From the NCBI GenBank assembly GCA_034190875.2, contig CM067348.1, forward strand, positions 22,864,222-22,928,221: DNA of 64,000 nucleotides, written 5' to 3'. The stretch is from Urechis unicinctus (Eukaryota > Annelida > Polychaeta > Xenopneusta > Urechidae). The first letter of the stretch is position 1; each line of letters opens with the position of its first letter. The position numbers were made by a program, and so were the translations under genes. This document shows positions 8,001-63,100 of the stretch, piece after piece. The notes under the pieces are model-generated. The model was not told the DNA's origin, made no database searches, and saw only the letters and a program-made list of their open reading frames with translations.

Positions 8001-11000
8001 TTCGCTATAATCATAATTGCAACCATCTTATTCAACATAACCACCTTTATAAACAAGACCATCTTTGTTTATCATAACCACAATTTGAACCATCTTATTC
8101 ACATATACCAGGGCTACCATATTCCATCAAGCTTGCATTCACCAGTACTATTTAGTAGGCTTTTATAAAAAATACTACTGCCTGCAAGCTTCTTGGTAGG
8201 ATCATAATGGTCTAACCCAATCACCTGTGACGTGGACCACCGTATCACTAAATAACCATTACCCACACTATCCATGACATGCCGGTTTTATCCAAACCAG
8301 CCTGGTCATATTAACATTATTCCAGACCAGATGAATCAAATCAAATGGTCTGGCATTGGATGAGGGCCTCAGTATAACCCTTCAACCGCTCCCCGAGTTG
8401 AAGAAGCCATGTGACAGTGAAGGCTGACAACAACTGACCTACATAAGTAGATGACAGCAGGTGCCCTGACACACAAGGCGGCCATGACACAGGCAACTAG
8501 ACACCAGCAACCAGGACATTCACAATGGCTTCCCATCCACTAGCGAGAGGCATACAGACAACCACCAGTCAGATTGAGAAGTAGCTTCATCAGCAGTAAT
8601 TGGGCCAATTAATCTGATAATGTTCACCTGGGCCCCATCTTACCCTCACCTGGCTTAATGATATGGCCCATATTTAGTTTATCAGGTAGATATCAAAATT
8701 AACAGAAAAGATTGATGTTGGTCAGATTGTGTTTAAATCCGACCAACAATCTGACCAACAAACAATACCATCAAACATTGGTGATATACGAGGGGCATGC
8801 GGATGAAGTCAACTCACCTTAGAATTAGGACTGCTCTTCTTAAATACTCTGAAGCAACAGAAAAATACCGCACAGTTAATGACAAGCATCTTCAACATTA
8901 ACTTTATCACAATCAATATCAGCATTAATGTCATCAATCACAATCAATTGTCATCATCTGTACGAGAGCATTATCACCATTGATGGTTTATCAAAGGCCT
9001 TTATCGCTGATATTGTATTTATCAATATCATCATCAGCAGCTGCAGTAACATCAACACCACCACCACCATCACCACCATCATCATCACCATCATCATCAA
9101 TATCATCATCAGCAGCTCCAGTAACATCACACCACCACCACCATCATCACCACCATCATCATCACCATCATCAGCAATATCATCAGCAGCAGCTGCAGTT
9201 ACACCACCACCATCCCACCACCACCAGCAACTTTTGCATAATCATTGACACAACTTTATATACAGAGCAATATCTCCATGCTGAACTTTACAATATAGCT
9301 TCAACATGGAAGTAATTCCCCACCCGTTAAACATCAAACATAATGGCCCATTCCACCAATTATTGTCAATGAGGTTTGTTGAGCAGATCGACAGGTAGCC
9401 CTACAAGACGTCTGCGTAGACGTCTTACCGTTTCTCGAAACAACGCAACTCAATTATTTTTAGATCGATTCAGACAACTACCAAACACCAAACATACACA
9501 AGTGATGGAGTTATAGAATGCAATGATGTTTTACGGACAATTTCATCCCTTTTCGGCTGGTGATTTCATCCGTGGTAATTATTTATAGTTCGATCAATTT
9601 GGGAAGCGGTAAAAAGTCAGAAACACAGCAACATGTTTGTTTACAAGTTCAAGACCACATGCATTGCGCGGGGGGGGGGGGCACTTAAGTGTAAAGATAT
9701 AGTATACATGTGCCGCACGAAGGGGGTGGTTTTTTTTAACATCTCGCCTTTTACGACGGGTAAGACATTCGCATAATACCTTGTACGATGGAGTATACTT
9801 TTTCTCATTCTCAACGAGTACAACGGGTACAGGTTTTCGAGGTCCCGCGGCACACCCCTATCCGAGTTAGGGTAGGGTAAGTGCCCCCCACTTGGGATGC
9901 TAAGGCAATGCGGGAAATCGCGAGAATTAATTGTTTCCAAAATGGCAGACATCGTATCGCGATTTGTTAGGAAACGAACTATCGATGCATTTATTGAAGA
10001 ATAACGTCGAGTGGTGGTAAGTTTTTTGGCGCGCAAAGTCTATTTTTTGTAAAGGCTCTTGATATTTGTTATTTTCTAGGTACGCAGAGTAGTCCTTCAA
10101 CCCAAACGAGAACTTGCCGACTGTGTTTGACGAACTCTTCGTAACGGTACAAATTCATGTTACCGTTACACCGGAGCTAATCGACAGGATACACAAACAC
10201 ACAATGTCTCCAAGCACCAATGCGCTGGACAAATGCGGTCAAAAACAGCCATCATTGAATTATTCACAGGATCATTAGGGCATAAATTACTAACAATGTG
10301 GTGGCTTTTTTTGGGGGGTGGGGGGGGAGCTCTTTCTTCACACCACATGGCCTGCAGCATCCCCCTGCGTAGCACCCTGGCAATATTATCCGGTTGATCT
10401 CTTCAACGACTAACATAATAGCCAGTGACATTGACTGATATAAATACAAGGTCATTTTAGCCACCTATTATTGCTGCACTTTACCCGCGATCAAAAGCCA
10501 TCGACGAGAATTAGCAGAGGAGAACTTGTAAAAGTCTTGCCGAGTGGTATGACCCATCAATCAAACGCAAAGCCTTCTGTAAAATACCATCGTATGCAAG
10601 CTAAATGGTAGGTTCATAATGTTCAAGTCCAATTGCCTACAATTCCTGCTGTCGGAGAGTAACTGCTAATCTATGCTGGAGCGAAAATGAAGCGTTACCA
10701 TTGATTCTGACATCTTTTATTCAGCAACCAGTGACCGTACACGACGCGTCGCGCCTACCTGTTGCGTGCCACAAACGGCCAGCTGTCTAGAGGGTGGCTA
10801 GCGACCCGCGCGTCGTGTTCGCTGATAAATGACGTGGCCGTTGATGAGCGTCTTAAAGGAGGGAGATATGAACTCATCTCGGAGAGGCACTCGCGTAAAC
10901 TCGTTCGTACATGAGCCGCGTGATCAATCGTATTGCTCTGGCTTGTTAACCGACTGAGAAAATCGCATCGCGTCTTGCTCCGGCTTGTTAACCGACTGAG

Positions 11001-15512: not shown

Positions 15513-15707
<195 letters not shown>

Positions 15708-18432: not shown

Positions 18433-18676
18433 AATGGCTTCTCCTATGGGCCAGATGATGACGTCTGCATTAAGACGGCTTCTCCTATAGGCCAGATAAT
18501 GACGTCTGCATTAAGACGGCTACTCCTATTGGTCAGATGATGGCGTCTACATTAAGACGGCTTCTCCTATAGGCCAGATGATGACGTCTGCATTAAAACG
18601 GTTTCTCCTATAGGCCAGATGATGACGTCTGCAAGACGACATCTCCTATAGACCAGACAATGACGTCTGCATTAAG
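18433..18676. repeat. 41-bp minisatellite, about six copies (repeated at 22261-22502)
   Basis: Units contain GGCTTCTCCTATAGGCCAGA and TGATGACGTCTGCATTAAGA. The array is present in both duplication copies with the same unit order, so it predates the 3.8-kb duplication. Confidence 0.9.
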
Positions 18677-19658
18677 ACTGCATCAGGGGGAAACCCCGGT
18701 ATGTATCTCACATTGCTACAGTCTACATTATAACCTCTCTGCAGTTTTCCGGTTGTCAATAGCAATTTCGGATTTGATGAAGTCTAACTGTCAGTATCAT
18801 GTGCAGCTTGGAAATGGGTCACACCGAGTGAAATGTAGCAATCACGTTGATAGGGTCTTATTACTGGTGACATAATAAGCGAACGCTCGTCGTAGATACG
18901 GAAGCGATAGTCCATCAACGCCGTCCATTGGACAAACGTAGCGAAATTACGCCGCCTAGACAAAGCGTATATACGCCGTCTACATGGCAGGCGCATTTCG
19001 AAACATAGACGTAAAATGCGTACGCCATTCATTTTACGGATGTAACGAACAATACATCGTCTGCTTAATAAATAACACGTAAAACCCACGACAGATGTTT
19101 AGACTCCTTAACGCTACAGGACGTCTACGTCCGCGCAGAGCTATAGACCCCTCTGCTTCGTAGGATACCCGTTAGACTATAGCGTGGCTCACGTCCGCAG
19201 AGGCACTTGTTAAACTGTTCGAAAACCAGTCGAGGGTAGTAGTCATTTGAGTGACGGTATTTCTATCCCTGCTATTAACAATACACAGCCATACAACTTA
19301 TTCAGCAAGTAATATTAACTTGACACAACCCGTGTCTCCAGCAACCAGAACCCCAACAAGCCACAAAACGTTTCCCAACTCACACCAACTTGCCATATTG
19401 TACATATTAGGGGTCGTATCAAAAGAAGACGTAAGTCTGACACGGACAGTCAGGCGTGACAACCATGACGTCGAGGCGAGGTGAACAACTCTCAAGTGTA
19501 GCTTTAACAGCGTGAACAAGCCGGCTAGGTGTTTCCGGGTATGAGATAAGTAGGGAGAGAGGAGAGGGCGACGCTGATAAGGTGATATGGTCGTGAGACG
19601 AGGCGCACGAATAATGAATGAGCAGAACGAGGCGACTGACACGTGACGAGGTGAAGGC

Positions 19659-22600
19659 CACGTAACGCCCGCGGGTTGCGTCAAAAGCCCATCAAAAAGT
19701 ATCTAGTAAAGTCTCGTTATCAGGAGCGGAACACGCCAAAAGTTACCTGAGGCATGGAGGGAGTGGAAGGGAGCGGGGGTGGGAATGGGGTCGGGGAACT
19801 CGGAACACCTGACCCGCAGGTTCTCTGCCCTCGTCCCCTCACGGCGAGAGTTCTCAGCCCGGTGTGGACCTCGGGTTTGACATAACCTGTCCGAGCTTAT
19901 CCTCATCCGCTGTACTAGACGAAATGAATACCTCTGTGTGTCATTGCATTGTAAAGCCTGGAGGAAATCTCGCACACCCAAAAACCTCTGAGGGGTTTAT
20001 ATAAAAGACTCGCACGTCAGAGATATGGCTACAGGCAAACCAGTTTTGTGTTAACAGAAACAATGAAGACGCCCAGGAATTGGCAGCTGACATAAACACA
20101 CACCGCAGCATAATTTAGTAAACCTCAGCTGGGGAAGATTCACGCATTTTCACACTACTTCACTCGGGAGAGTCAATGCTATATTAAGAGCCTGTATCAG
20201 AGTGACGATCGCCTACGCGTGGCGGGGGGCGGGGCTTGGGGCGTGGCGGGGGGCGTGGCGGGGGGCGAAGGGGCTTGGCCTTATCCCGGTTACCCTCATG
20301 TGTTATAAGGTGCCAAGAAATGTTAATAGATAGCATAACCCGTCGTACAAGGTATTATACAAATGTATAACCCGTCGTACGATGTGGAAATGGGGTATGC
20401 GGCTTGGACGCTTTATCATCATAAATCAGATATGTTGGCGTCTGTGACAAGGATGTCGTAGATTCTTCGCGCTTCACATAGGGACACATTCATTGCATTT
20501 GCATAGACAACGATCGGTGGGAAATGACGGGAGGAAATCTCGACATACTGGAACTAAATATATTATTTAACCCGTTGTACAGATGGGAAGAGAAAAACAT
20601 ACCCCGATGTACAACACGAATCCCAAAAAAATAACCGTACAGATTGCAGCTGGAAAATATACAAGCCGAGAGGCCGAAGATACATTCCCCGTCGCGCGAC
20701 ACAAGTATACTACCTCCATACACTTAAAGTGCCTATGATACCTAAAATATGATTTTTGAGTATAAACTGAACAAATCGATGCGGATCGAATGGTGTTGGA
20801 AATTGAACCACAAAAACAGAGTAATTGCAACTTCGTCTTTCATTCGGTTCCATAAAAATTATCATGGAAATTTGGTGTGATAGGCACTTTAAGTGCCCCC
20901 CACCTCCCCCGCACCTACGAAGGCACAGAAAACCACAACGTAACGCGGAATTTGAAGAAAACGGGTCAGAAAGAAAATTGCCTCGATTCCCAGCAAGGAC
21001 AATTATTTGGAAGTTTTCAGAGGGGATGGGGGTCAACGGAAAATATGACTCCAGGTAACCCGGTACTCCCCGTCATATAGATAATGAACGTTCCCTTACT
21101 GTCAATAAACGTTTGTATGCACGCACCACGTCGCCAGCCACCGGACGTGCACTTAAACAGCCGTGTAATAATTCATGTCAGTGCCTGGAGTACGTGTCCC
21201 TTAACGCATCCACCAGGTGGCAACGGGATCTTTTCACTATGACAACCAAATAGTTCAAATTGATATCTTCGCCCGTCCGGCACCTTCAAGCTCACGCATA
21301 ATTCACACGTGACCGGGACGTTCAATGGGTCAATATCCAGCTACCAATTCAAGCCAGGCTCAATTAATACGCCCGACCTAATGTTTCCCAAAGGTAAAGT
21401 AAGGTAAGTACAGGGTTTAACGGCACACCAACACTCATGTGTTATATGGTGCCAAGAAAGGTTAATAGATAAGATTGACCTGATTAAGCAGCCGCCTTCT
21501 AGGACAAACGTAAATGGAGATGGAAAAGATAAAAATGGAAACGATTATCCAAGGGCAAGTCACCACCAGCCTATTGACAGGACCAAGCCATTCCAGCCTC
21601 TCGTCTAGGCGAGATCCGGGCCAGAGTAGTGTGTCGCAGACCTGGCCCTCATAAGGACTGCTCCACTCAACCACCAGGATCCCATTGTCCACCGACACGA
21701 GTCGCAACCCACGGCCAACAGGTGGCCCCCTATTATAGTCGCCTCTTACGAAATACAGGAGGATACAGTGTACCTTTTCTTCCCCCGGACACACAGGGCG
21801 GCTAATGTTTCCTAGAGAGCATGGATTCCATTGATGCCGACACACGTGATACATACTTTATTCATTAGCTATCATCCAACAGTTCTAATAACGTCTTCCA
21901 TATTCATCATTTGTCCTTCCGCATGTGGAAACTAATCCCATTCTTCTCACACCACCCCCCCCCCCCCCCCCCCCCCACCCCCCCCCCCCCACCACCACCA
22001 CCACCAAACATCAACATCCCTCGCCTGGCCTCAACATCCCTCACTCACATACCATCAACATTCCTCATCCGCCTCCTCAGCATCCCTCACCCACCAAACA
22101 TTAACATCCCTCGTCTTACATGTTACACCCAACTTCAGCAACCTTCAATCTGAAGACAGCTGCACCATCCGCCTAACACACGACAGGTAGATTACCCAGG
22201 GCTCGCTTCTATCTAAGCCTCTTAATGACAATGTTTTCAATCAGCCCTTAATTAACAAAAATGGCTTCTCCTATAGGCCAGATGATGACGTCTGCATTAA
22301 GACGGCTTCTCCTATAGGCCAGATAATGACGTCTGCATTAAGACGGCTACTCCTATTGGTCAGATGATGGCGTCTACATTAAGACGGCTTCTCCTATAGG
22401 CCAGATGATGACGTCTGCATTAAAACGGTTTCTCCTATAGGCCAGATGATGACGTCTGCAAGACGACATCTCCTATAGACCAGACAATGACGTCTGCATT
22501 AAGACTGCATCAGGGGGAAACCCCGGTATGTATCTCACATTGCTACAGTCTACATTATAACCTCTCTGCAGTTTTCCGGTTGTCAATAGCAATTTCGGAT

Positions 22601-23484
22601 TTGATGAAGTCTAACTGTCAGTATCAAGTGCAGCTTGGAAATGGGTCACACCGAGTGAAATGTAGCAATCACGTTGATAGGGTCTTATTACTGGTGACAT
22701 AATAAGCGAACGCTCGTCGTAGATACGGAAGCGATAGTCCATCAACGCCGTCCATTGGACAAACGTAGCGAAATTACGCCGCCTAGACAAAGCGTATATA
22801 CGCCGTCTACATGGCAGGCGCATTTCGAAACATAGACGTAAAATGCGTACGCCATTCATTTTACGGATGTAACGAACAATACATCGTCTGCTTAATAAAT
22901 AACACGTAAAACCCACGACAGATGTTTAGACTCCTTAACGCTACAGGACGTCTACGTCCGCGCAGAGCTATAGACCCCTCTGCTTCGTAGGATACCCGTT
23001 AGACTATAGCGTGGCTCACGTCCGCAGAGGCACTTGTTAAACTGTTCGAAACCAGTCGAGGGTAGTAGTCATTTGAGTGACGGTATTTCTATCCCTGCTA
23101 TTAACAATACACAGCCATACAACTTATTCAGCAAGTAATATTAACTTGACACAACCCGTGTCTCCAGCAACCAGAACCCCAACAAGCCACAAAACGTTTC
23201 CCAACTCACACCAACTTGCCATATTGTACATATTAGGGGTCGTATCAAAAGAAGACGTAAGTCTGACACGGACAGCCAGGCGTGACAACCATGACGTCGA
23301 GGCGAGGTGAACAACTCTCAAGTGTAGCTTTAACAGCGTGAACAAGCCGGCTAGGTGTTTCCGGGTATGAGATAAGTAGGGAGAGAGGAGAGGGCGACGC
23401 TGATAAGGTGATATGGTCGTGAGACGAGGCGCACGAATAATGAATGAGCAGAACGAGGCGACTGACACGTGACGAGGTGAAGGC
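19659..23484 (+). repeat. 3.83-kb direct tandem duplication, copy 2
   Basis: Near-exact repeat of 15831-19658, joined head to tail with no spacer. Differences seen are few: homopolymer lengths (the poly-C tract near 21955 versus 18130, a G-run near 19775 versus 15945), small indels and scattered substitutions. It ends ACGAGGTGAAGGC at 23484, after which the sequence diverges. Very high identity means a recent duplication, ongoing homogenisation, or two haplotypes joined in assembly. Confidence 0.95.
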
Positions 23485-23667
23485 GCTACTTCATCACACT
23501 TAGAGTCACCGTGCTAGGAACGGATAGGGAGAGTTACAGCCACTCATAGCCGGACAGGTATTGTCAACTATACAGGGGTGAATATACCAATATATATATA
23601 TATGATAGGGAGAGTTACAGCCACTCATTGCCGGATACAGGGGCCGGATACAGGGGCCGGATACAGG

Positions 23668-26430: not shown

Positions 26431-27462
26431 ACAAATATTCTACTGTTTTATCATTGACACCATACCAATACTATAATTAACGAGACGGGAGGTGGTGGTT
26501 CTTGAATCGACGGCTTGGGAGATGAGGTCGCAGTGGGTTAAGTGGAGGGCGATGATTGAGCGCGTTCCCAGGCATATACCACTATATTCACGCAGGTACT
26601 CTGGCTACCCACAAGCATATGCTCATACATGCTCACAATAACCCTTCTATTATTCCATGCATGTCATCAGCAAAGCAGGTTCAACAAACAATAGGGGCTA
26701 CCTGCTGTACAGATGACCCACTCGACGCATCAGAATAACCAATCGCTCTCCTCCAGAGAGGCGCGCACTCACTTCGGCCACTGTCCCAATATGCCTGACT
26801 AATTGGAATCAATGCCCCCGCCCCCACTCCACCTTTATGAATAAATTTGCTGTTGAACAAGACTAGTGTTGGGGCGATGCATGACAAGATTCCAGAGTAT
26901 GACGTCATAAATTATATCTATTTTTAGCCACGGCACTGGCTAGGAGCCACATATGGCGGAATATGCGGGAGTATAGGTGTTATACATCGTGACGAAGAGA
27001 AGAGCGCGTCAATGATTGGAAACGGAGCATGGCTTAAGTAGATCACCAAGCGTCGGATCGGTTGATCCGCCAGATCGATCATACACGGGTTTTGAAATGA
27101 TCCCTCCCGATATTGACACCTGTCAAGAGCCGTTACCCATCACGCATACGTCACAATATCAGATGATCGTTTTAATCAATGCGATATATTTCCAGAACCA
27201 CACAGGGGACAGTTGACATTGTACAATTGAAACCCAACCTTGGTCGCTCGCTATCACCAACAATATCATGAATGCATCTTACCCACACACGCACTTCGTG
27301 ACCTCTTGACACAAATGTAAGGCACACAGAAACCTCAGTAGGTGAAGACAGGACAACCGTTTAAGCTACTCTGAAAACCCGCAAATAAGCTATCGCTAAT
27401 CTATTGCGAATGGCGTCTATCTTGAATTGATATTATTTTACTTGCTCAAGATGTAATGAAGA

Positions 27463-28531: not shown

Positions 28532-29237
28532 TAGTCTGCGTCCCAGACTCCAGGGGTTCCGCTACGCTTCTCGCCCTGGAGTCCACGACCAGACAAGGTC
28601 TAAAACTGGCGCGTCCGAATATTCATTAGACACGTTCGTTAATCTTCGTGACCAATCAACGCAAAGGTTGTGACCCGGATTGACCTTAATTGCGCGTGTC
28701 TGGCTCATGAAACTGGCTTGGGATACGCACCCTCGGTTTTATGTGACGTCATGTACATTGTGGTCTGCGTCCAATGAGAACACGTTGAATGTCTTCTGGA
28801 GTTATGGGGTGTCCCAAAAGTTTAAATTGGCACCACAACAAGCGTTTTAATCGCTTAGCGGCACGATAGTATGTTTACGTAATAGTCAGTTAAAAAGAAC
28901 CAGTTGTGTGTCTGCTTCTCTCGCCGACTGTGTGATTAACGGTGCCACTCAGCGTGAAACAACAAATCGGGGCGTAGTAGAATGTGTGCCCGGCTCATAA
29001 GAATCACTCGTCCAGTTGGACAAGATCTTCGGAAATTGTAGAACTGACCAATGAGAGACAACGACTCAAAAGTACCCGAGAGTGACCGAGAGACACGGCT
29101 TGTGATTGGAGCATCCCAAATCTGGGATGCCTGTCCAGTTCAAGACATTGAGGTCCCCTAGACCTGAAGGCGAGTCTATTGAATATCAGTAACATGTAAA
29201 CAGCGCCCGCAGCCATCGGGCAAGGGGACCTTGACTA
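28532..29237 (+). mobile_element. TAG...CTA element family 2, long copy (706 bp)
   Basis: Starts TAGTCTGCGTCCCAGACTCC and ends GGGGACCTTGACTA. The 9-mer GTAAACCAG flanks it exactly on both sides (28523-28531 and 29238-29246). Terminal inverted repeat is only TAGTC/GACTA. A 113-bp internally deleted relative lies at 50575-50687. The 70-codon minus frame inside (29216-29004) does not look like a transposase, so it is probably non-autonomous. Confidence 0.85.
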
Positions 29238-29541: not shown

Positions 29542-30144
29542 TAGCTCCGGTCGTACGGTATTCCGTAATATGAATATAAACCGTTCTGCTTTAACATTTT
29601 TCGCGCGTCCAAGAAAACGCGTTTGGCTAATGTGCTACATAACGCATCTAGAAAATAACATTTATCAAGAGCTTGTACAAAAAGAAGTCCTAACGCACCA
29701 AAAAACTTAACCCCTCTCGACGCTAATCTTCAAGAAATGCCATCTATATATCATTTCCGAAAAATCGGGATACGATGACCGCCATTTTGGAAAATATTGG
29801 GTCGCGTGATTTCCCGCGATATCCCGCCACCTCGTCCGCATTGCCTTAGCATTAATCGTCGATGGGTCACATCATTCTGAGAATGCGCGATACACGTGGT
29901 CTTGAACTTGAAAAACAAACATGTTGCTGTGTTTCGGACTTTTTACCGCTTCCCAAATTGATCGAACTATAAATAATTACCTTGGATGAAATCCCCCGCC
30001 GAAAAGGGATAAAATTGTCCGAGAACATCATTGCATTCTAAAACTCAATCACTTGGGTATGTTTGGTGTTTGGTAGTTGTCTGAATCGATCTCATTTTTT
30101 TTACATTGAAAGTACGACGCCTACTCAGACGTCTTGTAGGGCTA
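29542..30144 (-). mobile_element. TAG...CTA element family 1, long copy B (603 bp)
   Basis: Reverse orientation relative to 9396-10179: begins TAGCTCCGGTCGTACGG and ends CAGACGTCTTGTAGGGCTA. Flanks GCTCTGGTG (29533-29541) and GGTCTGGTG (30145-30153) match at 8 of 9 positions. Retains the body segment missing from copy A, which defines where the nested insertion there occurred. No transposase visible. Confidence 0.82.
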
Positions 30145-35441: not shown

Positions 35442-35498
35442 TAGCTCCGGTCGCAAGGTATTCTAAATATATACCTACTCAGACGTTTTGTAGGGCTA
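35442..35498 (-). mobile_element. TAG...CTA element family 1, 57-bp micro-copy
   Basis: Consists only of the two element ends: TAGCTCCGGTCGCAAGG joined through a short AT-rich middle to CAGACGTTTTGTAGGGCTA. Flanks CAGACGGGG and CAGAGGGGG match 8 of 9. Internal-deletion derivative, far too short to code. Confidence 0.8.
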
Positions 35499-35907: not shown

Positions 35908-35960
35908 TAGCCGCGCACGACGGTAACGTAAGTATATATAATAAACGTCGTGCACGGCTA
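35908..35960. mobile_element. TAG...CTA element family 3, 53-bp micro-copy
   Basis: TAGCCGCGCACGACG faces CGTCGTGCACGGCTA, a 15-bp terminal inverted repeat with one mismatch, around an AT-rich centre. Flanks AATAAAGGG (35899-35907) and AATAAAAGG (35961-35969) match 8 of 9. Different sequence from families 1 and 2 but the same TAG...CTA ends and 9-bp duplication. Confidence 0.75.
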
Positions 35961-51339: not shown

Positions 51340-53150
51340 ATGGCGAGTCGTGAGGAAATTGAGAAAATCCCTGGAGTATATGATCAATGGGAAAGAACGG
51401 TGTGACGCATATCTAGTCGTGAATAAATTCAGCAAATCATCACTGGGTAAGAATGGTGGGACGCATGGTGAGTTGTGAGTACGTTAAGTATATCATCACC
51501 ACCATGGAAGAACGACGTGACGCACGGTGAGTTGTGAGTACGTTAAGTATATCATCATCACCATGGAAGAACGACGTGATGCACGGTGAGTTGTGAGGAC
51601 GTTAAGTATACCATCATCACCATGGAAGAACGACGTGACGCACGGTGAGTTGTGAGTACGTTAAGTATATCATCACCACCATGGAAGAACGACGTGACGC
51701 AAGGAGAGTTGTGAGTACGTTAAGTATATCAGCATCACCATGAAAGAACGACGTGATGCATGGTGAGTTGTGAGTACGTTAAGTATATAATCACCATGAA
51801 AGAACGACGTGACGCACTGTGAGTTGTGAGTACGTTAAGTATATCATCACCATGAAAGAACGACGTGACGCACTGTGAGTTGTGAGTACGTTAAGTATAT
51901 CATCATCACCATGAAAGAACGACGTGACGTATGATGAGTTTTCAGTACGTTAAGTTTATCAGTAACACGATGAAAGAACGACGTGACGCACTGTGAGTTG
52001 TGAGGACGTTAAGTATATCATCATCACCATGGAAGAACGACGTGACGCACGGTGAGTTGTGAGTACGTTAAGTATATCATCATCACCATGGAAGAACGAC
52101 GTGACGCACTGTGAGTTGTGAGTACGTTAAGTATATCAGCATCATATCAGCATCACCATGGAAGAACGACGTGACGCACTGTGAGTTGTGAGTACGTTAA
52201 GTATATCATCATCACCATGACGATGAAAAACTGTGAGTTGTGTGACACACTGTGAGTTGTGAGTACGTTAAGTATATCAGCATCACCATGAAAGAACGAC
52301 GTGACGCACTGTGAGTTGTGAGTACGTTAAGTATATCATCACCATGAAAGAACGACGTGACGCACTGTGAGTTTTGAGTACGTTAAGTATATCATCACCA
52401 TGAAAGAACGACGTGACGCACTGTGAGTTGTGAGTACGTTAAGTATATCATCACCATGAAAGAACGACGTGACGCACTGTGAGTTGTGAGTACGTTAAGT
52501 ATATCATCACCATGGAAGAACGACGTGACGCACTGTGAGTTGTGAGTACGTTAAGTATATCATCATCACCATGAAGAACGACGTGACGCACTGTGAGTTG
52601 TGAGTACGTTAAGTATATCATCATCACCATGGAAGAACGACGTGACGCACTGTGAGTTGTGAGTACGTTAAGTATATCATCATCACCATGAAAGAACGAC
52701 GTGACACTGTGAGTTGTGAGTACGTTAAGTATATCATCATCACCATGAAAGAACGACGTGACGCACTGTGAGTTGTGAGTACGTTAAGTATATCATCACC
52801 ATGAAAGAACGACGTGACGCACTGTGAGTTGTGACGTTAGTATCATCATCACCACGACGTGAAAGAACGACGTGACGCACTGTGAGTTGTGAGACGCACA
52901 TGTGAGTTGTGAGTACGTTAAGTATATCATCACCACGAAAGAACGACGTGACGCACTGTGAGTTGTGAGGACGTTAAGTATATCATCATCACCATGAAGA
53001 ACGAACGACGTGACGCATGGTGTACGTTAAGTGTGAGCACGTTAAGTATATCATCATCACCATGAAAGAACGACGTGACGCACGGTGAGTTGTGAGTACG
53101 TTAAGTATATCATCATCACCATGAAAGGACGACGTGACGCATGGTGAGTT
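51340..53150. repeat. 56-59-bp minisatellite array, roughly 30 copies
   Basis: Unit contains GTGAGTTGTGAGTACGTTAA, GTATATCATCATCACCATGA and AAGAACGACGTGACGCAC. Length varies through 1-3 ATC trinucleotides before ACC. Units are degenerate before about 51463 and highly uniform after. Each carries TGACG next to ACGACG, so it is CpG-rich for this AT-rich region. Lies between SAP130 and MED11 with no coding potential. Confidence 0.95.
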
Positions 53151-55923
53151 AATATCATAACACAGAAGGCCAGTTGATCAGTTGCATCACAATTAATTTC
53201 TTTTATGTTTTAGTTCTATATTATTGTTTAGTTACAGCCTTACTTTGAACTGTTATATAAATCAGGACCGGTTCTTAACCGGATAAGGGAGTTCAATGGA
53301 TTCGGACGAACACCCTGTCCACCCCTATCAGAATAATGAGGAAGAGAGGTCAACCCTACCGCTGATAAGCGCCCAATACACAATGCAACTGGTTCGTTCT
53401 CCACCTTTTCTTTGAAGCATTAAAGTCATTTTAAAGGGTTTATCGCTAAAAAAGCTTTGGATGTTACATGTCTCATACTTTAATTTTCTTGATAATGCGC
53501 GCTCCTTCGTTATAGTTTTCGTTGCTGCTTGTTATTGCTTGAGTGGGGACTAGCCACAGAAGTAGAGTTCGAGTCCAGGAGTAGAGTTCTTGTTGTTTAT
53601 TGAAGTTAAGCGTTTTAGCTTAGCTGGGATCTCGGTCAGAATCGTTCCACAATTTCTTATTCTCGTCTCTTTGCTAGGTAGCTTTCCCAGAACCAGCGTG
53701 TGTAGCCCTTATATCGGGGTTCCGGGCGTTGGATTCCGACCCAAACCGTTCGATCAGCTGACACCTCATTGGTTCAGGTAAAGCCGGTCCATTCCACACA
53801 GGTCTTGACCCAATGGTCCACATGGGGCGTGGATTAGTGAGGTCATTGGCCAATGGGGATGGTACCAGCCAAGACTACTTATCAGGGTAACACCCCCACC
53901 ATATGGGCGGAGGGTGACCCGGGCTAGTGTAGACATGTCGTACTGATAATTATGAGTGGGGATGGCTTTAAAAGTCAGATGAGCTCGATTAATATCATAA
54001 GACATGAATTATGCTTACATTCCTATATATCACAAAAAGCAGGCAAACAAGAGTACTCCAATCACAAGGACAAAAAAAATGCAATATAATATATTCTTTT
54101 ATTACTATAAATAAATATGTAGTTTATACTGTTGAAGTTACTGTCCAATAATAACAATGTATAGAACTACGAAAATCCAAAACTACAATTATCCACAGGA
54201 TCTGATCTTAGTCACATATTGGTCTCAATATCAATTACAAACGAACTTTTACATTTTCATTATCAGGATTGCTGGGGGATATATATTTGTGAGTAGAAAA
54301 CACTCGGGGAAAAGGAAAATACTGGAATCCATTAGTAACGCAGCGTCCCTCGTTCCATACTATAGGGTACCTTGCCTTACCTGACTGTTTACTGTTTACT
54401 TTTTAGTTCTTAAATCGACCGCCCTTTATGTACTTCACTGAATCACACCGTGACTTATATGTCAAATAACTGTGACTGATGGCAGGATACTTATGAGCTA
54501 AATATACTTATATGATATGATGATCCGGGTAACACGATGCCTACACTGTCTAAACCTAAACGGGTTAAACTAAGTGTGTTTGTAGAATCATGGGATGAAA
54601 AATATAGTTGTATTTTTTCAGGAATATTATGTGATATTATTGAAAAACACTGCCCCGTGTATAGCCCCAGTCGAAAAGTAATATAATATACTGGGACGTA
54701 TTGTTGGGCTAGCCTGTGTATAACAACAACCGCAGGAGGTAAGTGTCTTTATAGCTGATTGAACTTTCGCCTTTTTGTGGCGAACTTCAGAAATAGTTCT
54801 CTCTCTCTCTCACTCCTACAACTACAAATCCAGCCTACGGACCTGAGTGCGATTTCTCACTTCTCTTGGGTGCCGTAGTGGTGGGTGCCGCAACAGTGAG
54901 ATGCCCAACTTGCAAGGGCCGATCAACCGGCTACCGACATAGGTAACGTGATAACCAGCGCTCGTGGTCTATTTCTGTACACAGCCTCGGATTCCTGTGG
55001 TCATTAGTCGTGTGTCATAAAGAAACACAAGTATCTGTGTGATACGATTTACTTCGCCACTAAAAATTAATTCTGTATTGTGAGCATGGACATGCGTGCA
55101 TTTGATCACTTTATTTTGACCTAACCCAAATAAAATTTAAACTTGTTAGACTATCTAAGTATCTGCTTAGGTAGGTGTTGAGTAAAATGGGGTTTTTTTT
55201 ATCTGTGTGAGGATAGAAAACGAAAATGAAACAAAATAGATGAATTGGTTTAAAAAACAGAGGTGAAATCAGCCGATTAGTAGGATAGGCAATTATTTTT
55301 CGATGTGTTTAAAGGTGGGGTGCACTTTTCAATATCTGGTTAACGCCTTCCTGTAAATACATAATGAACATTCCCTTCTGATGATCAATGGTCCACACTG
55401 CATGTGGTCTACCCTCATCGAGCTGCAGAAAACGGTTTTATAATATAATAATTTCACTGACCATAATTGCAATGGAGGATCATCAATTACAAAAATCCTA
55501 CAAAGGAAGTCTGTAAATATGCTGTATTACAACTATTAAATATGCCATTCATATAAAGCTAAACAAGTTGATTAATGTACAGATCTGCCATTTGGAAAAA
55601 ATAACCCACATTACATTACAACAAATGAAAGGACAACTATTTTTGAGGATTGCTTGGGGATAAACATGCCCTCACAATAGGTAAATGAAATTGTCCACAG
55701 AATGAGCAGAAGGGATAAAAAAATCCTGAAAATCACCTAGGGATCTATTACAAAACCAAATTCAGAGTAATATTTTCTTTATTACACCAACAGACACACA
55801 ATATGTTATTTTTTTTCCACAGCAGTGACCATATATAGTTTTTTCATATTAATGAGCAGCCATTGAAACAGTATGATACTTCATCTTTGGCCATAGTCCA
55901 TCACTTTAATCCCACAACATCCA
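53151..55923. other. Intergenic; weak plus-strand exon candidates, no confirmed gene
   Basis: Three plus-strand segments look mildly exon-like: 53296 (ATG; MDSDEHPVHPYQNNEEERST...), about 53652-53779 ending at AG before GTAAAG (peptide with GVPGVGFRPKP), and about 54832-54951 ending before GTAACG (peptide with VRCPTCKGRSTGYRHR). They do not assemble into a family I can name, and phases were not shown to match. Otherwise AT-rich unique DNA. Confidence 0.2.
55778..55783 (-). terminator. Candidate polyadenylation signal of MED11
   Basis: AATAAA on the minus strand, about 140 nt downstream of the MED11 stop codon. Position is typical for a short 3' UTR; cleavage site not determined. Confidence 0.45.
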
Positions 55924-58900
55924 TCATGAGATATCTTGAGATTTGTGCATTTGTTGACTTTCCCCTTCATTAATTGGCCGGGGCAATATTCCACTGGTTT
56001 GCGCTAGAGTTCGAGATTGCTGCAGTCTCTGTTGCATTTTCAGTTTATCTAGCTCATTGAGTCGACTCTTGATGTGCTCAACTCTGTGAAGAGCCATAAG
56101 TGCATCTTTGAGGGCCCCATAGCACGAACCTTCATGTGGCTGGCCTAAAACATCAATACACACATTGTTAACATTAGGTAATTGACACTGTCAATCAACA
56201 AGAGCAGTACTTGGAACATAGCAAATAAATAATTGAAGTCAATAAAACATTTTGAAGATATAATTTCTTTCCTGATGAAACCAACAGGCCAAACTGTCTT
56301 TGATATGAATTGATTGAGAGCAAGCTGGGTTTCATTCAGAATGATGCTGTGACAACATCTCCTGCTATGAATTTGTTGTTGTATCTAATCAAAAGTATTG
56401 TGCACAAAGATTGTATAGGACTACAGCACAAGGAAGTGGTCCACAGACACTCAAGATATGATTTCCTCACAAAGGTATTGTTAGAAAAATCACAATTCCC
56501 TAAATGCCAGTTTGGGTAAATCATGATTGTTTGACCCAAGGGCCAGTGATGCATACAAATTCGAATTTGGCTGGCATACATGTATTGGATCCCCATACCA
56601 TATGTGCACGCAAAGTTAGGAGTACTGAAAATATTGTCACGCCACATGCCATTTAGTTTGGCATATTACGAAATGCCAACATCAAAATAAAAAAATTTAA
56701 TACAAAATGACTGAGAGACAGGTCAGTGTGTCTGCTAGCTAACATGATGACAAAACGTGCAATCAAAAATTTAAGGTCCTGGAACGCTCTGCCTTATACA
56801 TTCGGCATAGTATTTGGATCAGCATAAACACATTTCCAGCACAAGCAATTATATCATCACACATTCACTTCACAAACATCAATACAATATGTTCATATAC
56901 CAAAGACATGAATGATGATTATCAGCATGACTCACCTGTAGACACCTGGATCAGGTACTTCAGCTGCTCATTCATTTCCTTTTCCACATTCTGTAATGTG
57001 TCAAGGAATTGGGAAGAATGAGATTCCACTTGTTTTATGCTGGGTTTGTCTTTTGACAACTCTAAGAGGGCATGACCTGCGCAACAAAATGAACAACATG
57101 ATTCAACTAATGCATGTAACACAATGCATGGTGGAGATCTTACTAAATACCACACATGTGAATGAATAAAGTTGATCACTGAGATATAGCTGATAAATCT
57201 ATCTTTGCAAAACTGTTGTATTACATGAATAATGAGTGACAGTATACTTTTCATAAGTTCACATCTTCCTTTTGTTAAACATGTACAGTCGGTAATAGCT
57301 ATTCATCCCAATTTTAAGTATACATGCAATATATGTTATGCAGAGGCCTTGGGTCCAGCAATAGACAGCAAAGATGAGGTCATGTGACAGTTGTTGTTTG
57401 CTCATAACCTTAAGTGCCTTCATGGTAGATACAGGTCAGAGAAGCACTTAAGTTGAATTAGATCAATAGATGTGGTTTTATCCACAAATGAAACTAGAAA
57501 CCAATAACCAGATAACAGGCGTGTGTTTCACATATTTTCACCATCAACCCACAGCACAGCTGTTCACCTAAACGGCCCTTTTGCATGTATGGATGCTTGC
57601 TTTACAACCCTGTGTAAATATTTAAAACTACTCAGCAGGGTTTGAAATTGGCATGCGTACCGGGGCCCTGATACCTAAAAGTTGTCTCAGGCCTCCTGAA
57701 TTTGCCAACAGGTGGCCCACATACTCAACCCCACAAACAATCGACTCCCGGTGATAGGATAGCAATATTTTTTAGCAAACAATGTATACTATAGTGGATA
57801 CTTCACTTTACTTAATGAAATCTTGTTAAATTGATCATTTCATGTACACCAAATAATTTGTGGGACACCAGCTTTCGTGGCCTCCAACAAAATAAGTTGA
57901 AAGCAACTCCTGCCTGGAGATGGTTCACCTGAGGAGTTCGCAAGTGCACCAGTTTGGGCTTGGCGTGGAATAGGACCTAACATTAGCTAGACTGGGTACC
58001 TAGCACTTTGATTTGAGCTCTTTTGAACCAAGTTCGGTAACCAGTGCTCCTTCTTCAACTAAGCAATCAAACCGGCTGTTGGGCTATCGGTACTTGGCTA
58101 GCCCTACAGGACATCTGAGTAGGTATATATGCATACAGCCCTACAAGATGTCTGAATAAACGTTATACGATGTTCAATCAAAACCCCACATACATCAAAA
58201 TATTCATCTCAAAAGCTCAGTTGCCTCTTTTCTTTAAGGAATTAACAGTAAGCAGGATGTTGTTGATAGCTCAAGTGATAAAATTGTTTGCGATACGTTG
58301 TGAAAAAAAAGGATTCTGCGCGTCCGCAGGGCTAATCTAGATGGATACGAACTTTCGACACCAGAAACTGATATATATGCGCAGCAACACAGCTCTTGAG
58401 TGATGGCATCCGGAGACACCGAGTGGAACCCACTCCACGAGCACCTAGGGAACGGAGAACAAACCATGTGAACTTATATTTACCTAAATGTGTTCATCGC
58501 ATCTGGATTTCTCGGAAATCTATAGTAAATGGCACTTAGTATATAGCCCTGCAAGTAGACGTCTTTCTCTGTTTGAAAACGATGCAATGTTATAAATTTT
58601 GAGATCAATTCAGATAACTAACAAACACCAATCATACCCAAGTGATGGAGTTTAAGAATACAATGATGTTCACGGACAATTTTATCCCTTTGTGGTGGGA
58701 GATTTCATCCATGGTAATTAGTTATAGTTCAATAGATTTGGAAGCGGTAGAAAGTTCAAAACACAGCACCATGTTTGTTTTCAAGTTCAAGACCACATAC
58801 ATCGCGCATGCTCAGAATGATGTGACCTATCGACTATTGCTTCCAGCGTCTGAAATCAATAAGATACAGCAGATTGTATTCAAAGCGCGTTGACGTGCTT

Positions 58901-59575
58901 CTCAAGATTAGCAGGTAGGCAATGCGGATGAGGCGGCGGGAAATCGCGGGACCCAATATTTTCTAAAATGGCGGTCATCACATCGTGATTTTTCGGCCAC
59001 ATGGCGAGTGAAAATGAAACTGCGTAATGTGACGTCATATCTCCAAAAAATGATGATAACCAAAATAGTCCGGTTTAGCGGATATTCATCTTTTTTTGTG
59101 TACACAACATTGATGAGAAGCTATGCAGATGGCATTTTGGTGCACGACATTATCGAAAAAAGAATAGCATCGATCGGTAGTGAGCTTCAGGTGTGCCGAC
59201 TTTTTTTTCACAGGCTCTTGATATATGTTGTTTATTAGATGCCAAACCCAGCACTGTAGTCAAACGCATGTTTTAGTGTGCGCCCAAAATATCGGAGCAG
59301 AACGGAATATTTTTATATTACCGTTAGACCGGAGTTACTTAGTGTAGTGCAAGAGAGTAGTTGTGAAGGTGCCTTAAAGTTTAAATAATCTGGTATTATC
59401 GCTATTAATGACGAGGTGGACATTATGTTGATGCTGCAAAATAAAGTAAGTTTATGTTATTCAGAGAAAGCGGACAAGTGTATTTTATTTCACCTGCACT
59501 TTGCATGGCTGCCGCAATCTGATGCTCAATGGCATCTAGTTGCTGAAGTTTTTCTATCGGGGGATTCGCCGCCAT
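55924..59575 (-). CDS. MED11: MED11, Mediator complex subunit 11, complete, three exons
   Basis: Small helical subunit of the Mediator head module, which bridges activators to RNA polymerase II and TFIIH; in other eukaryotes it pairs with MED22. Exons: 59575-59494, 57076-56936, 56144-55924; 444 nt, 147 aa, phase 1 at both junctions. Exon 1 MAANPPIEKLQQLDAIEHQI, exon 2 LLELSKDKPS and EKEMNEQLKYLIQVSTG, exon 3 QPHEGSCYGALKDALMALHR match the family in order. The human protein is 117 aa; the extra length is a charged C-terminal tail after RLQQSRTLAQTSG. Intron 1 (2.4 kb) contains a complete family-1 TAG...CTA element. Divergent from DHRS12. Confidence 0.93.
58544..59337 (+). mobile_element. TAG...CTA element family 1, long copy C (794 bp), in MED11 intron 1
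   Basis: Starts TAGCCCTGCAAGTAGACG and ends TTAGACCGGAGTTA (final CTA mutated to TTA). Flanks CTTAGTATA (58535-58543) and CTTAGTGTA (59338-59346) match 8 of 9. Body colinear with copies A and B, including GTTTTCAAGTTCAAGACCAC. No transposase frame. Lies about 156 bp from the MED11 exon 1 donor, so it may influence splicing or carry promoter-proximal signals. Fragments of similar left ends are at 58099-58150. Confidence 0.82.
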
Positions 59576-59578
59576 CTT
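59568..59578 (-). promoter_or_regulatory. YY1-like AAGATGGCGGC overlapping the MED11 start codon
   Basis: On the minus strand the MED11 ATG lies inside AAGATGGCGGC, which matches the YY1 core found just downstream of transcription starts in many housekeeping genes. The match is direct; regulatory use in this organism is inferred. Confidence 0.4.
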
Positions 59579-60156
59579 TAACTTGGCCTGACCCGCCATA
59601 CTCTAGATGGCAGTTGGCCGTTGTTGTAACTAGTTGTAGTATAGACGTTATGATATGTTAATGATTCCTGTATCGTTGCATTGATTGGTTATTTAATTTC
59701 ATGGCAGGTTAGTGACTCGTACTACATCGTCCCAATATTTTGGCTCGTTTAGACATTATCATCTGTGTCATGTTCTAGCATTCAGTGATCGATATTTGTG
59801 AAGCGAGTTGGTACTTCATAACGTCATGATGAGATCTATAGATGAGACCATACATGAGGCAGATACCGACGGTTTGCACCGTTACATAATATGCGGGACT
59901 GTGACCTGTGCGATTCACTTACACAAGCCGATAAACGCTTTGGCTTGATGCGGGTTATTGACGAACGGTTTTCTTCAAAGTGGGGCTGTGTTTCAGTTGA
60001 ATCACCCATACTGGATTAGAATACAGCTCAGCTGGACTGTAGATACAAACACAAACGTAGCCCGACCGGACAGCAATATACATATAAGGTCTACTCAGAC
60101 GTCATTAGCACCTGATTAGTAGGGCTAACGCAAACCTACATCTAAAAATTGTAGAA
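59576..60156. promoter_or_regulatory. Shared 5' region of divergent MED11 and DHRS12
   Basis: 581 bp separate the two start codons on opposite strands, fitting a bidirectional promoter. No TATA box is obvious at a useful distance from either ATG. The right part, 60058-60127, is occupied by a 70-bp transposon-like element, so part of the DHRS12 leader or proximal promoter may be element-derived. Confidence 0.5.
60058..60127 (-). mobile_element. TAG...CTA element, 70-bp micro-copy just upstream of DHRS12 start
   Basis: Begins TAGCCCGACCGGACAGC and ends TAGTAGGGCTA, with a TAGCCC/GGGCTA inverted end and the internal CTACTCAGACGTC shared with family 1. Flanks ACACAAACG and ACGCAAACC match 7 of 9. 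Ends 29 bp before the DHRS12 ATG. Confidence 0.65.
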
Positions 60157-63100
60157 ATGTCATTCTTTAGGAATGCAATTTGGTTTGTAAAGGGCCTCAG
60201 TGAATACACAAAGTGAGTATATTTTCCTGATACTTTTTGCACTCTGTTACATTCAAATGGAAGTATAGCTCCGGTCGTAACGGTAACATGAATTTATACC
60301 AGACGTCTTGTAGGGCTAATGGAAGTAATGTTGAAGTTTTGCAACCCATGCTGTGATTGATTTCATGAAATGAGACACAGAGTTGTACCTCCTATTTTAA
60401 CCTTGATGATATGTCTCGGGTAATTATTGGATAGTGATTATTTATATATCTTTAATTCTTTTCGTATAGGTCAGGATATGCGTCGGCCAGTAAACACTTT
60501 AATGCTGCTGACCTGCAGGTCAGCTGCTCTGGAAAGTCCTACATGATAACTGGTGCCAACAGTGGCATTGGAAAAATTGCTGCCATTGAAATAGCCAAAA
60601 GAGGTGTGATGTTATGTTGAATGTGTCTTTCAGCTCATTTGAATGACTGATAAATTGACCATGCATTCACATGATACTTGAATGTAACGTTGCAAGTTTC
60701 TGCACTTATTGATACTATATGCTCTGTCTATGAATTATATTTGCATATGTATTAGAACTAATATTTCTGATACATTGATAGTTTTTTGCTATTGTTGGTG
60801 TTCATTTTTGTTACTTTTTGTGCAGGAGGTGTTGTACACATGGTATGCAGGAGCAAAGAAAGAGGAGAGGAGGCAAAATCAGAAATAACAACAGCTACAA
60901 ATAACCAGGTTATTCAACATTCATTCATGGTGGCTCATTGTTTTCCTTGATGGCACCATTGTGGTCTGGCCCCAGGATTTTTAATGACCTCTATAGGAAG
61001 ATATAACATAAAGATGCACACTGCATGTTCATTGCCCTGAGCTACTAGTTGCTATCCCCTGATTCTCCCTTGCAAAACGCTGGCAGTAACATATCGTACT
61101 GAAATGTGGAATAAATTAACTTCTTGGTGAATCTCGTTAATTAAATCCTGGCACACTGCTCTATTCTAAGTCAGTTTGTATGATAATATAATTTCTTTCC
61201 TGGCGTGTTGTAATTCAGATTTTAAGTATCTTTCCGGAAGTAAATGATATGAAAATAGGATAAATTCTGCCTTCATGATGTGTATGCATTAAGATCACAC
61301 ACCATTTTTGACCTTACTTGAAGGATAAAAAATTAAATGTTATTCATTATACTCATGCTCACACCAACATTTTAGTGGGTTATTTTCTAAAAATGTGTAG
61401 TGTTTCTCGTTATGAATAGAATTCAACATATTATCATTTCTGTTAAGGAAATACATCTTCACATTTTGGACATGTCACAACCTCAAGCAGTGGTGCAGTT
61501 TGTCAAGTCATTCACAGCATCTGGGCAAGGCCTAAATGTCTTGGTTGGTATTTTACGTTTCATTTCTTACGCTTCTTGCAATACTTTCTTTGTTGTCATG
61601 ACATTTTATTAAATCATTCAATACAGCATTTCAAAAGTATTTGATCTCACTGTGCATTAAACACTCCATAAACTGTTTTTGACTGTGAATGAGGACAGAT
61701 AATGTTGCTGTTAATTTAGATCAATAACGCAGGATGCATGGTGAACAAACGCGAAGTCAATGAGGATGGACTGGAGACTAATTTTGCCACCAACACCCTT
61801 GGTAAGTCACTTACTCACTATCCTAAATTTTGTATTACATCGAACATAGGAAGAATACAGAGGGGGGGAAACGGAAAGAAAAAAAATATTGAAACTGGCA
61901 TGGACAAAATGTATGGTTAATATTGTTACATTTGTAACGTATGTCTGCTTCAGGAACACATCTGCTGACTGTTGGTCTTGTTCCCTTGCTTCTCAAAAGC
62001 GACAAACCCAGAGTGGTATGCATTATTAATTATATGAAGGGACATATGTCATATATCATTGGTTGTAGACTAATACAGTTCCATCCTGACATATTGAAAC
62101 CGGAATATAGTTAAAGTCTATAGGTAATAGATTTTGCCACTCACTGGTCCCGGGAATTTATAAATTATTTGCATATAAACCAATGTTCAAAACCTGAAAA
62201 CAGTCAGTAAATCACAATGTTTCGTCATATTGTTTCAGGTGGTTGTGTCATCAGGCGGTATGCTCGTACAGAAGCTTAATTTAGCAGACCTGCAGTCAGA
62301 GAAAATGAACCCATTTGATGGTACCATGGTTTATGCTCAGAATAAGCGTCAACAAGTTATCATGACTCAGCAGTATTCCAAGATGTGGCCAGCCATTCAC
62401 TTCTCTAGTATGCACCCTGGTTGGGCAGATACACCAGGTACTGTGATGATGTGATCGGGGTTAATTAGGGCTTTCTTTTTAAAAAAACATGCTTCTTCTG
62501 GTAGGTTTGAGCCTATGATAATGATGATGACGATGATAGAGAATTGGTCAGCATAAAATTATGTATGATACTACTACCAATCCTATAATCTACCATCATT
62601 ACAACAATCAAGCAATGTTTTCAACAATATCAGGAACCTCAATATTATCATTAAACCCACTGTCCTCATAATTTTCATTTTGATAACTGTCCTCATTCGT
62701 ATAATTATTATTGCCATTATCTTGTAGCTCTGCATGATGTCTAGTTGACTGTATATCACCATTCGACTATGATCACCACATGCTTTTTGCCATTTACCTT
62801 GCAGCTGTCAGATCTTCCATGCCTGATTTTTATGAGAAGATGAAGGATCGTTTGAGGACAGCCGAGGAGGGAGCTGACACCATGGTGTGGTTAGCTCTCT
62901 CTGATGCCGCTCTAAGTACAAAGAGTGGTTCCTTCTTTCAAGGTGAGTTCTTCTCGTCACAGGCATTCGAGTTCGGACATCATGATTTTCCTACACTAGC
63001 ATTATGATATATCATAATGCAAGGGAGATAAAAAAATCATGATGTCCGGAATCTAGTGCCTGTGCTTTCAGTCAGTATGTCGCGTTTAAAGCGTTATGAC

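Follow-up and report, generated by a model that had tools for sequence, protein, structure and literature searches.

A genome-wide family of nonautonomous DNA transposons with TAG/CTA ends and 9-bp target duplications in Urechis unicinctus, and its very short nano elements

The window analysed here, a 64,000-bp stretch of the Urechis unicinctus genome, contains MED11, of which exon 2 was assigned by Pfam and the remaining exons are frames read by eye. Beside it, holding copy F below and next to copy E, lies a gene which we take to be DHRS12; Pfam returned no match on the exon so labelled. The following copies of a transposon family, given with their target duplications (TSDs), were located in the window.

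9396..10179, plus strand: long copy A, 784 bp; TSD ATCGACAGG/ATCGACAGG, 9/9
29542..30144, minus strand: long copy B, 603 bp; TSD GCTCTGGTG/GGTCTGGTG, 8/9
35442..35498, minus strand: nano copy D, 57 bp; TSD CAGACGGGG/CAGAGGGGG, 8/9
35908..35960, plus strand: nano copy H of a sister family with TAGCCGYGCACGACG ends, 53 bp; TSD AATAAAGGG/AATAAAAGG, 8/9
54662..54711, minus strand: old nano copy G, 50 bp; TSD 7/9
58069..58153, no strand: degraded family ends, three LE-like motifs with no clean pair
58544..59337, plus strand: long copy C, 794 bp, within MED11 intron 1; TSD CTTAGTATA/CTTAGTGTA, 8/9
60058..60127, minus strand: short copy E, 70 bp; TSD ACACAAACG/ACGCAAACC, 7/9
60266..60318, minus strand: nano copy F, 53 bp, within DHRS12 intron 1; TSD ATGGAAGTA/ATGGAAGTA, 9/9

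Copies A to F had been reported in an earlier note on this DNA, and all six were recovered at the coordinates given there, each with a 9-bp direct repeat of at least 7/9 (9/9, 8/9, 8/9, 8/9, 7/9 and 9/9, in order of position); copies G and H are additional. The TAG/CTA boundaries of the six also hold, except at the right end of copy C, which reads TAACTCCGG. The same note had placed three copies around the MED11/DHRS12 promoter, and this stands for copy E, which precedes the DHRS12 start codon by about 30 bp, but not for copies C and F, which are intronic. Within copy A lies a nested insert (about 9670-9890), the best relatives of copy B elsewhere in the genome are 89-94% identical to it, and copy F is the prototype of a 53-bp class. 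Two open reading frames within copy C (91 and 108 aa) gave no Pfam match over the cut-off, and its interior, used as bait for a longer relative, returned one full match (copy C itself) and 39 partial ones, with 40 of 2621 candidates scored.

No length or register other than 9 bp fits the direct repeats. In the six copies first reported, alternative flank repeats of 4-8 or 10-14 bp gave at most 7 matches (best 7/13, in one copy), a right flank shifted by 1-6 bp in either direction left 0-5/9 matches, and mispaired left and right flanks from different copies matched at no more than 4/9. Among the 720 permutations of the flanks the observed sum of matches was reached by the true pairing alone. 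The earlier note had staked the family on finding the same duplications genome-wide, and it survives, as they were present both in the 53-bp class and in long relatives. The 53-bp class gave 22 non-redundant loci in the 1.19-Gb genome, after the removal of 8 of 30 that repeated the 9-mer of another locus, and 21 of the 22 had TSDs of 8/9 or 9/9; full-length relatives of the 603-bp copy B had TSDs of 9/9 (14 of 20) or 8/9 (3 of 20). TAGC...GCTA pairs of up to 900 bp, taken from 22 loci that the 53-bp copy retrieved and allowed at most one TSD mismatch, gave 24 of 630 at 9 bp and 3, 3, 0, 0, 0 and 0 at 6, 7, 8, 10, 11 and 12 bp, respectively. A paralogous empty site was seen in the comparison of L087 with L089, which hold one and two copies of GGTTGTTTC. 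An origin of TAG...CTA pairs with 9-bp matches by chance or from simple repeats, as illustrated by the 15 spurious pairs of a 45-bp tandem array (window positions 198-587) and by two unrelated 7/9 pairs (3719-4731 and 26925-27398) admitted under a looser cut, is refuted by the recurrence of the duplications genome-wide and by control patterns with no matches, and deserves practically no credence. The data thus support a genome-wide transposon family that is bounded by TAG/CTA and makes 9-bp TSDs. Its members are nonautonomous cut-and-paste DNA transposons, of which the genome holds thousands of copies.

Each element is built from one left and one right end, and the two are unlike; in both, TAG is followed by a palindrome specific to that end, with a 4-nt loop on the left and an 11-nt loop on the right. 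In copy A the ends are as follows.

9396..9426, plus strand: left end, TAGCCCTAC, then the palindrome AAGACGTCT-GCGT-AGACGTCTT; fold z -3.0
10139..10179, minus strand: right end, TAGCTCCGGT, then the palindrome GTAACGGTA-11 nt-TACCGTTAC; fold z -2.3

Inversion between the ends is confined to the outer 4-6 bp, as had been described. Across 20 long copies the left palindrome was perfect in 13 (mean 8.5 of 9 pairs), while the right, taken in its best register, formed 7/7 pairs in 11, 6/7 in eight and 4/7 in one. In the sequence examined, element pairs with a TSD of at least 8/9 comprised 49 left-right, four sister-family and one composite pair, with no left-left or right-right pairs. The palindromic ends are probable binding sites for a transposase. 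A hairpin formed by the whole element was ruled out as an explanation, because sister copy H (z -3.7) is the only short window copy with an unusually good fold, and the ends of copies B and C fold barely better than shuffles (z 0.1 to -1.8). A search of viral contigs with two exact end patterns gave no matches.

Exact left-end 19-mers occur 2977 times in the genome (control 0), and about one third of that number, 917 places (433 + 484; control pattern 0), hold exact nano elements of 41-67 bp; the next size bin, 68-98 bp, holds 22 (11 + 11). The pattern searched joined 19 bp of left end to 10 bp of right end over at least 41 bp, so that lower size limits are set by the search, and these counts cover the two bins named, with 99-400 bp outside them. 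Among the first 100 of the 917 places (contigs C1-C2) nano lengths ran from 42 to 64 bp, with 61 distinct sequences; long copies at the loci examined measured 427-821 bp. Short pairs of like ends were found in at most four (left+left) and six (right+right) places, some of them a nano within a nano, against 917 left+right. The 9-bp TSD was kept by nearly all nano elements whose flanks were inspected.

The junctions inside these elements recur on different backgrounds. Junction ATACCCAGACG was found with all four right-end variants, and ATACCTCAGACG and ATACTACTCAGACG with three each; since two of the variants, a and c, are a single CpG-type change apart, this amounts to three clearly different lineages for ATACCCAGACG and two for the others, and recurrence between a and c could reflect later mutation. 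For right-end types a-c, 26-38 bp of the right end were retained in 36 of 38 combinations and 16 bp in two; junction counts end at the second mismatch, which overstates the diversity of type d. The ends also keep the parental subtype, an ACGC left loop being present in 7/8 GTAAC-type elements versus 1/28 others, in a test of 41 hand-picked sequences out of the 61 distinct ones; the remaining 20, judged by eye, gave two for and none against. The recurrence of junctions in different right-end lineages, together with the 61 sequences, indicates that internal deletion happened repeatedly, and nano elements seem to have formed by the same route, with breaks inside the palindromes.

A serious contender, although one we lean against, is that nano elements are themselves mobile, a few ancestral deletions having been pasted many times and then varied by later mutation and gene conversion. 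Such pasting would suit the identical 53-mer that several sites (L001, L006, L007, L010, L011, L014) hold between different duplications, the large share of nano places relative to exact left ends and the closeness of variants a and c. It fits less well with the sequence variety of the first 100 places, where many elements retain different lengths of each end, or with junctions common to right-end lineages with many base differences between them, and two identical 47-mers on C1 also agree in their outer flank, which suggests a segmental duplicate.

We favour, with good but not full confidence, repeated shortening as the best overall explanation: nonautonomous elements were moved in trans and were cut down to nanos, time and again, through their end palindromes. 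A DDE-type transposase, most likely Mutator-like, would mobilise the elements in trans with a 9-bp staggered cut. Internal deletions repeatedly shorten long copies, at breakpoints that lie inside both end palindromes and frequently show 1-4 bp of microhomology, and leave a nano element that retains both ends (42-64 bp among the first 100 places). The likeliest cause would be interrupted gap repair after excision, during which synthesis would stall in the palindromes. Nano elements may be remnants formed in situ and not jumping units, between which the duplications alone do not discriminate. More tentatively, nano elements could be excision scars and not ordinary MITEs: after a longer element had left, two-sided repair would have stalled in the palindromes and the stubs would have joined, with both ends and the original duplication kept.

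Mutator-like mobilisation is likely. The MULE DDE domain (PF10551) has at least 150 matches in the genome, with 150 of 354 candidates scored, and the 8-11 bp TSDs of MULEs include the 9 bp found in the window and genome-wide. The long terminal inverted repeats that are typical of MULEs, if not universal, are absent here, where inversion spans 4-6 bp. The ends begin with TAG, whereas excerpts of PMC13359780 report G/C in the first three bases of most arthropod MULE termini; excerpts of PMC6446971 describe Mutator groups that lack inverted ends and make 9-bp duplications. The long transposase-encoding relative for which the earlier note had proposed a search did not turn up: among 30 PF10551 loci of about 3.3 kb each, a scan that reached ends within 1.5 kb of the domain, there was no copy with these ends that carries a transposase. 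Family ends were seen at four of the 30, in two of which (L043, L044) they belong to separate nano copies nearby and in two (L036, L040) to nano elements in which a different MULE is nested. The latter (L036/L062 and L040/L061) first looked like MULE-bearing copies with TAG ends, and were rejected as partners when flank comparison placed other copies of the MULE, with its own ends (GGCAGAGG.../...CCACTGCG), in unrelated flanks. The L061 MULE, lying inside the nano element, is flanked by a 9/9 duplication of its own, ATTCATATT; the L062 flanks, ATTTATATT/ATTTTATAT, match at 5/9 ungapped. Two further MULE groups, L087/L089 (FLYWCH, weak PHD match) and L035/L037, were set aside as having no TAG end at the single boundary that was visible, and none of the three MULE groups with a visible boundary had TAG ends.

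It is conceivable, though we think it the lesser prospect, that the driver is instead Merlin, P-like, hAT-like or of an undescribed superfamily, as the failure to find a partner in the MULE loci scanned would allow. hAT transposons make 8-bp duplications, against the 9 bp that alone fits here, and 8-bp flank repeats matched at no more than 4/8 in the six window copies. Merlin also gives 8-9 bp duplications, so that TSD length agrees, but its ends are reported in excerpts of PMC8101967 as a conserved 5'-GG, which is absent from the TAG ends. The 8-bp duplications of the P element (excerpts of PMC7776569) and its long inverted ends likewise differ from what is seen in this family.

Neighbouring ends are often one duplication apart. 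A second TAG end lay exactly 9 bp off in 22 of the 100 listed places, with 19 distinct 9-mers among the 22, and in 17/95 after repeats were removed by eye (P ~1e-8 versus uniform spacing). Spacing 4 was also in excess (11 of the 100 listed places), which simple targeting of one duplication does not account for. The excess is statistical, and from it we infer end-steered insertion, by which new copies would often land exactly 9 bp away from an end already present. Recombination between copies or tandem duplication, and not insertion beside ends, would be an unlikely source of such neighbours. Some of the listed pairs do repeat one event, as the 19 distinct 9-mers indicate, tandem right-end duplications are present in L008 and L071, and full flanks were inspected for few pairs only; on the other side, the neighbours in L062 and L007, although of different families, have 9 bp in common that are identical or almost so, and the 17 of 95 persist once repeats are removed.

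The derivation of miniature transposons from longer ones has long been in question, and is mostly argued from few deletion junctions. One genome with seemingly many junctions (61 distinct nano sequences in the first 100 places) in two palindromes opens interrupted gap repair to direct testing. The minimum length of DNA transposon that a transposase can handle would be tested by complete elements of 42-53 bp, and the excess of neighbours at exactly 9 bp is a measurable sign of end-steered insertion. If nano elements are excision scars, their counts would be a genome-wide readout of past excisions, and scars with both ends could still jump and attract insertions one duplication away.

The openly licensed literature yielded no account of the family or of a comparable nano class; Repbase or Dfam may list the family. 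Like MITEs, its elements are short, noncoding, of high copy number and constant in TSD length; unlike them, they have no real terminal inverted repeat, and the 42-64 bp class stands apart from the size bin that follows and apparently arose repeatedly. The P element, in excerpts of PMC7776569, resembles the family in having left and right ends of different internal spacing and internally deleted derivatives, but has 31-bp inverted ends and 8-bp duplications. Muta1 of Aedes aegypti shares 8-9 bp duplications, many short derivatives and a palindromic terminal motif, and differs in its 145-bp inverted ends and tandem subterminal repeats; excerpts of PMC5225508 describe no 42-64 bp derivative class. 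Curupira and some VANDAL and Phantom elements, some of them animal, come close in the little or no terminal inversion and, in several, the 9-bp TSD (excerpts of PMC6446971), but those are known from transposase-bearing copies, whereas the present family is seen as nonautonomous copies alone, with TAG and two unlike palindromic ends.

The six copies that the earlier note had assigned to the family were all recovered in the window, their 9-bp flanks agreeing at 9, 8, 8, 8, 7 and 9 bases in order of position; they are listed here with a sister-family copy.

9396-10179: long copy A, caught by the strict scan
29542-30144: long copy B (603 bp), caught by the strict scan
35442-35498: short copy D, caught by the strict scan
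58544-59337: long copy C
60058-60127: short copy E
60266-60318: short copy F (53 bp), caught by the strict scan
35908-35960: sister-family copy, caught by the strict scan

The claimed 9-bp target duplication was borne out, since only 9 bp in exact register fitted, while other lengths, slides and cross-pairings lay near background; among 720 permutations of flank pairing across the six copies, the observed match sum was reached by the true pairing alone. The strict scan, for TAGC...GCTA pairs at most 1000 bp apart with no more than one mismatch in the 9-bp flanks, returned 20 pairs, of which 15 from a 45-bp tandem array (198-587) were excluded, four were family copies and one was the sister copy. 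C was missed because its right end is TTA, and E because its flanks match at 7/9; a looser scan added E, a short family copy at 54662-54711 and two unrelated 7/9 pairs. A 706-bp TAGTC...GACTA segment (28532-29237), with a 9/9 flank repeat, GTAAACCAG, and small terminal palindromes, may represent a further family of this group, although chance alone is expected to give about one such match in the scan.

The window's own 1.19-Gb assembly, in which it lies on contig C7, was searched with two of the copies. The 53-bp copy gave at least 43 matches (40 of 1369 candidates scored), and from 30 loci of this class eight were dropped for repeating another locus's 9-mer, leaving 22 including the window's own. 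The duplication predicted genome-wide was present at 9/9 in 16 of these and at 8/9 in five, and was not readable in one, L008, where the right end is multiplied. Over the same 22 loci, 24 of 630 pairs had at most one mismatch at 9 bp (two elements being combined in one of them), and 3, 3, 0, 0, 0 and 0 pairs did so at 6, 7, 8, 10, 11 and 12 bp. The 603-bp copy gave at least 42 matches (40 of 2857 candidates scored); in the long class, all 20 other matches covering it fully among the matches listed, the duplication was 9/9 in 14, 8/9 in three, shifted by one or two bases in two and without clear form in one. Two long-class pairs with a common duplication may be duplicates. An empty site was also found, a short copy in L089 lying between two GGTTGTTTC where L087, 98.6% identical, has a single GGTTGTTTC. 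Across 47 hand-typed sites, any preference of the target 9-mers was no more than mild, for T/A at positions 4 and 6.

The three long window copies (603-794 bp) have interior sequence in common, A also carrying a nested insert, and the ends are built as follows.

Left end: TAGCCCTAC, then the palindrome AAGACGTCT-GAGT-AGACGTCTT
Right end: TAGCTCCGGT(C), followed by a palindrome with one arm such as GTAACGGTA, its complement and, between the two, an A+T-rich loop of 11 nt

Among 20 long copies taken from the genome, the left palindrome averaged 8.5 of 9 pairs and was perfect in 13, and the right one, in its best register, had 7/7 pairs in 11, 6/7 in eight and 4/7 in one of 20; in L068 a right-end pair is altered on both sides. 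Folding energy gave a less clear picture, being exceptional for the ends of A (z -3.0 and -2.3) and unexceptional for those of B and C (z 0.1 to -1.8). The sister family has an identical layout in different letters, its left end in L021 being GCACGACGTT-TATT-AACGTCGTGC. Two open frames in C had no Pfam match above cut-off. The interiors of B (CCAAAATGGCGG or TTTCCCGCG) and C (GCGCATGC) hold housekeeping-promoter-like motifs of putative function. A nested insert with poly-G/poly-C ends was seen inside long copies (window 9670-9890; L062 ~6620-6840), with related stretches at 5718-6035 and 16507-16909, and the L062 long copy has an apparent GT...AG intron.

Copies of about 40-65 bp that keep both ends, here called nanos, form a distinct size class. 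The pattern TAGCTCCGGT-N(12-38)-CAGACGTCTTGTAGGGCTA occurred at 433+484 places (control 0) and TAGCTCCGGT-N(39-69)-CAGACGTCTTGTAGGGCTA at 11+11, more than half of the latter being, by eye, duplicated or nested ends; together these counts cover sizes of 41-98 bp. As the left-end 19-mer occurs at 1507+1470 places, nanos own about one third of exact left ends. The first 100 places held 61 distinct sequences of 42-64 bp (the pattern admits 41-67), 53 places having 53-55 bp. Of the left end, nanos retain 19-28 bp (the pattern requires at least 19); of the right end, 36/38 combinations of right-end types a-c retain 26-38 bp (type d is fuzzy). Within each palindrome, these breakpoints lie in its loop or its inner arm. 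The junction ...ATACCCAGACG was seen with all four right-end variants, and ...ATACCTCAGACG and ...ATACTACTCAGACG with three each; since a single CpG-type change separates a from c, these represent two to three clearly different lineages, not four. Both ends of a nano belonged to the same subfamily (7/8 vs 1/28, Fisher P = 7e-6, in 41 of the 61, hand-chosen). The nano deletion thus most likely arose many times, in several subfamilies. Left-left end pairs occurred at no more than four places and right-right pairs at six, some being a nano inside a nano; because parents carry one left and one right end, this scarcity agrees with an origin by deletion and is not on its own proof of a pairing rule. 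Two 35-bp units resembling joined left and right ends were seen, at window 19109-19143 (8/9 flank repeat, region duplicated at 22936) and L088 4868-4902 (6/9, by eye).

Identical 53-mers with different duplications suggest that nanos jump. Recurrent junctions at microhomology would yield an identical picture without jumping. In-place deletion retains the 9-bp duplication, and either reading may hold.

Elements also lie one target length apart. L062 holds, in succession, a sister nano, a second sister nano into which a MULE is nested, and a long copy of the family; CCCTCACCC and CCCCAACCC lie between them, and CCCCCACCC and CCCCAACCC form the outer flanks. In L007 two nanos that differ from each other share three occurrences of GGGCTAGGT, the first of which overlaps an older end. 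Genome-wide, TGTAGGGCTA-N(0-30)-TAGC occurred at 510+517 places vs 75+59 for the control. Among the first 100, spacing 9 accounted for 22, spacing 4 for 11 and every other spacing for 0-5 (mean 2.3); with repeats removed by eye, spacing 9 stood at 17/95 (P ~1e-8 under uniform spacing). Where the spacing is 3-4, the 9-bp target of an insertion may have overlapped an old end, as in L007.

A MED11 match (PF10280, E 1.7e-7) lies at ~56937-57083, and a minus-strand frame at ~59489-59575 resembles the MED11 start; C, lying between them, is thus placed in a MED11 intron. E is ~30 bp upstream of the frame MSFFRNAIWFVKGLSEYTK (60157-60213), which we take to resemble the DHRS12 start, with F in the intron that follows. 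Nothing in the present data points to an effect of the family copies on MED11 or DHRS12. The window also holds a ~3.8-kb direct duplication (15500-23500, by eye), in which one set of open frames and repeats is seen twice, at ~15.9-19.1 kb and at ~19.7-22.9 kb, and a 59-bp minisatellite of ~28 copies (51460-53150).

As drivers, Merlin and P elements fail, on the partial descriptions available, on terminal bases or duplication length. The MULE domain PF10551 had at least 150 matches in the genome (150 of 354 candidates scored). In 30 MULE loci of ~3.3 kb no MULE-bearing copy with the family ends was found: at two loci apparently joining a MULE to TAG ends the MULE owns separate ends, the one in L061 has, within a nano, a 9-bp duplication of its own, and two other MULE groups differ from the family ends at their single visible boundary. 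A MULE with GGCAGAGG/CGCAGTGG ends (L061:4340-6428, L062:2655-6288) is nested in nanos of both families at A+T-rich 9-mers, and two nestings of this kind are seemingly many for 30 MULE loci. L087 and L089 carry a Mutator-like protein with a FLYWCH match and a PHD match below cut-off; these copies have long open frames and subterminal GGTTGTTTCGTACAC repeats, and the element is possibly Rehavkus-like. Mutator groups without inverted ends are described in the excerpt of PMC6446971, and together with the 9-bp duplication and the many MULE genes they make Mutator-like mobilisation our best guess, one we moderately favour. Tandemly duplicated right ends, in two or three copies (L008, L071, G000:C3:61150340 and G000:C13:8550274), are comparable in kind to plant Mutator elements with tandem ends, as far as the excerpt of PMC3310237 describes them.
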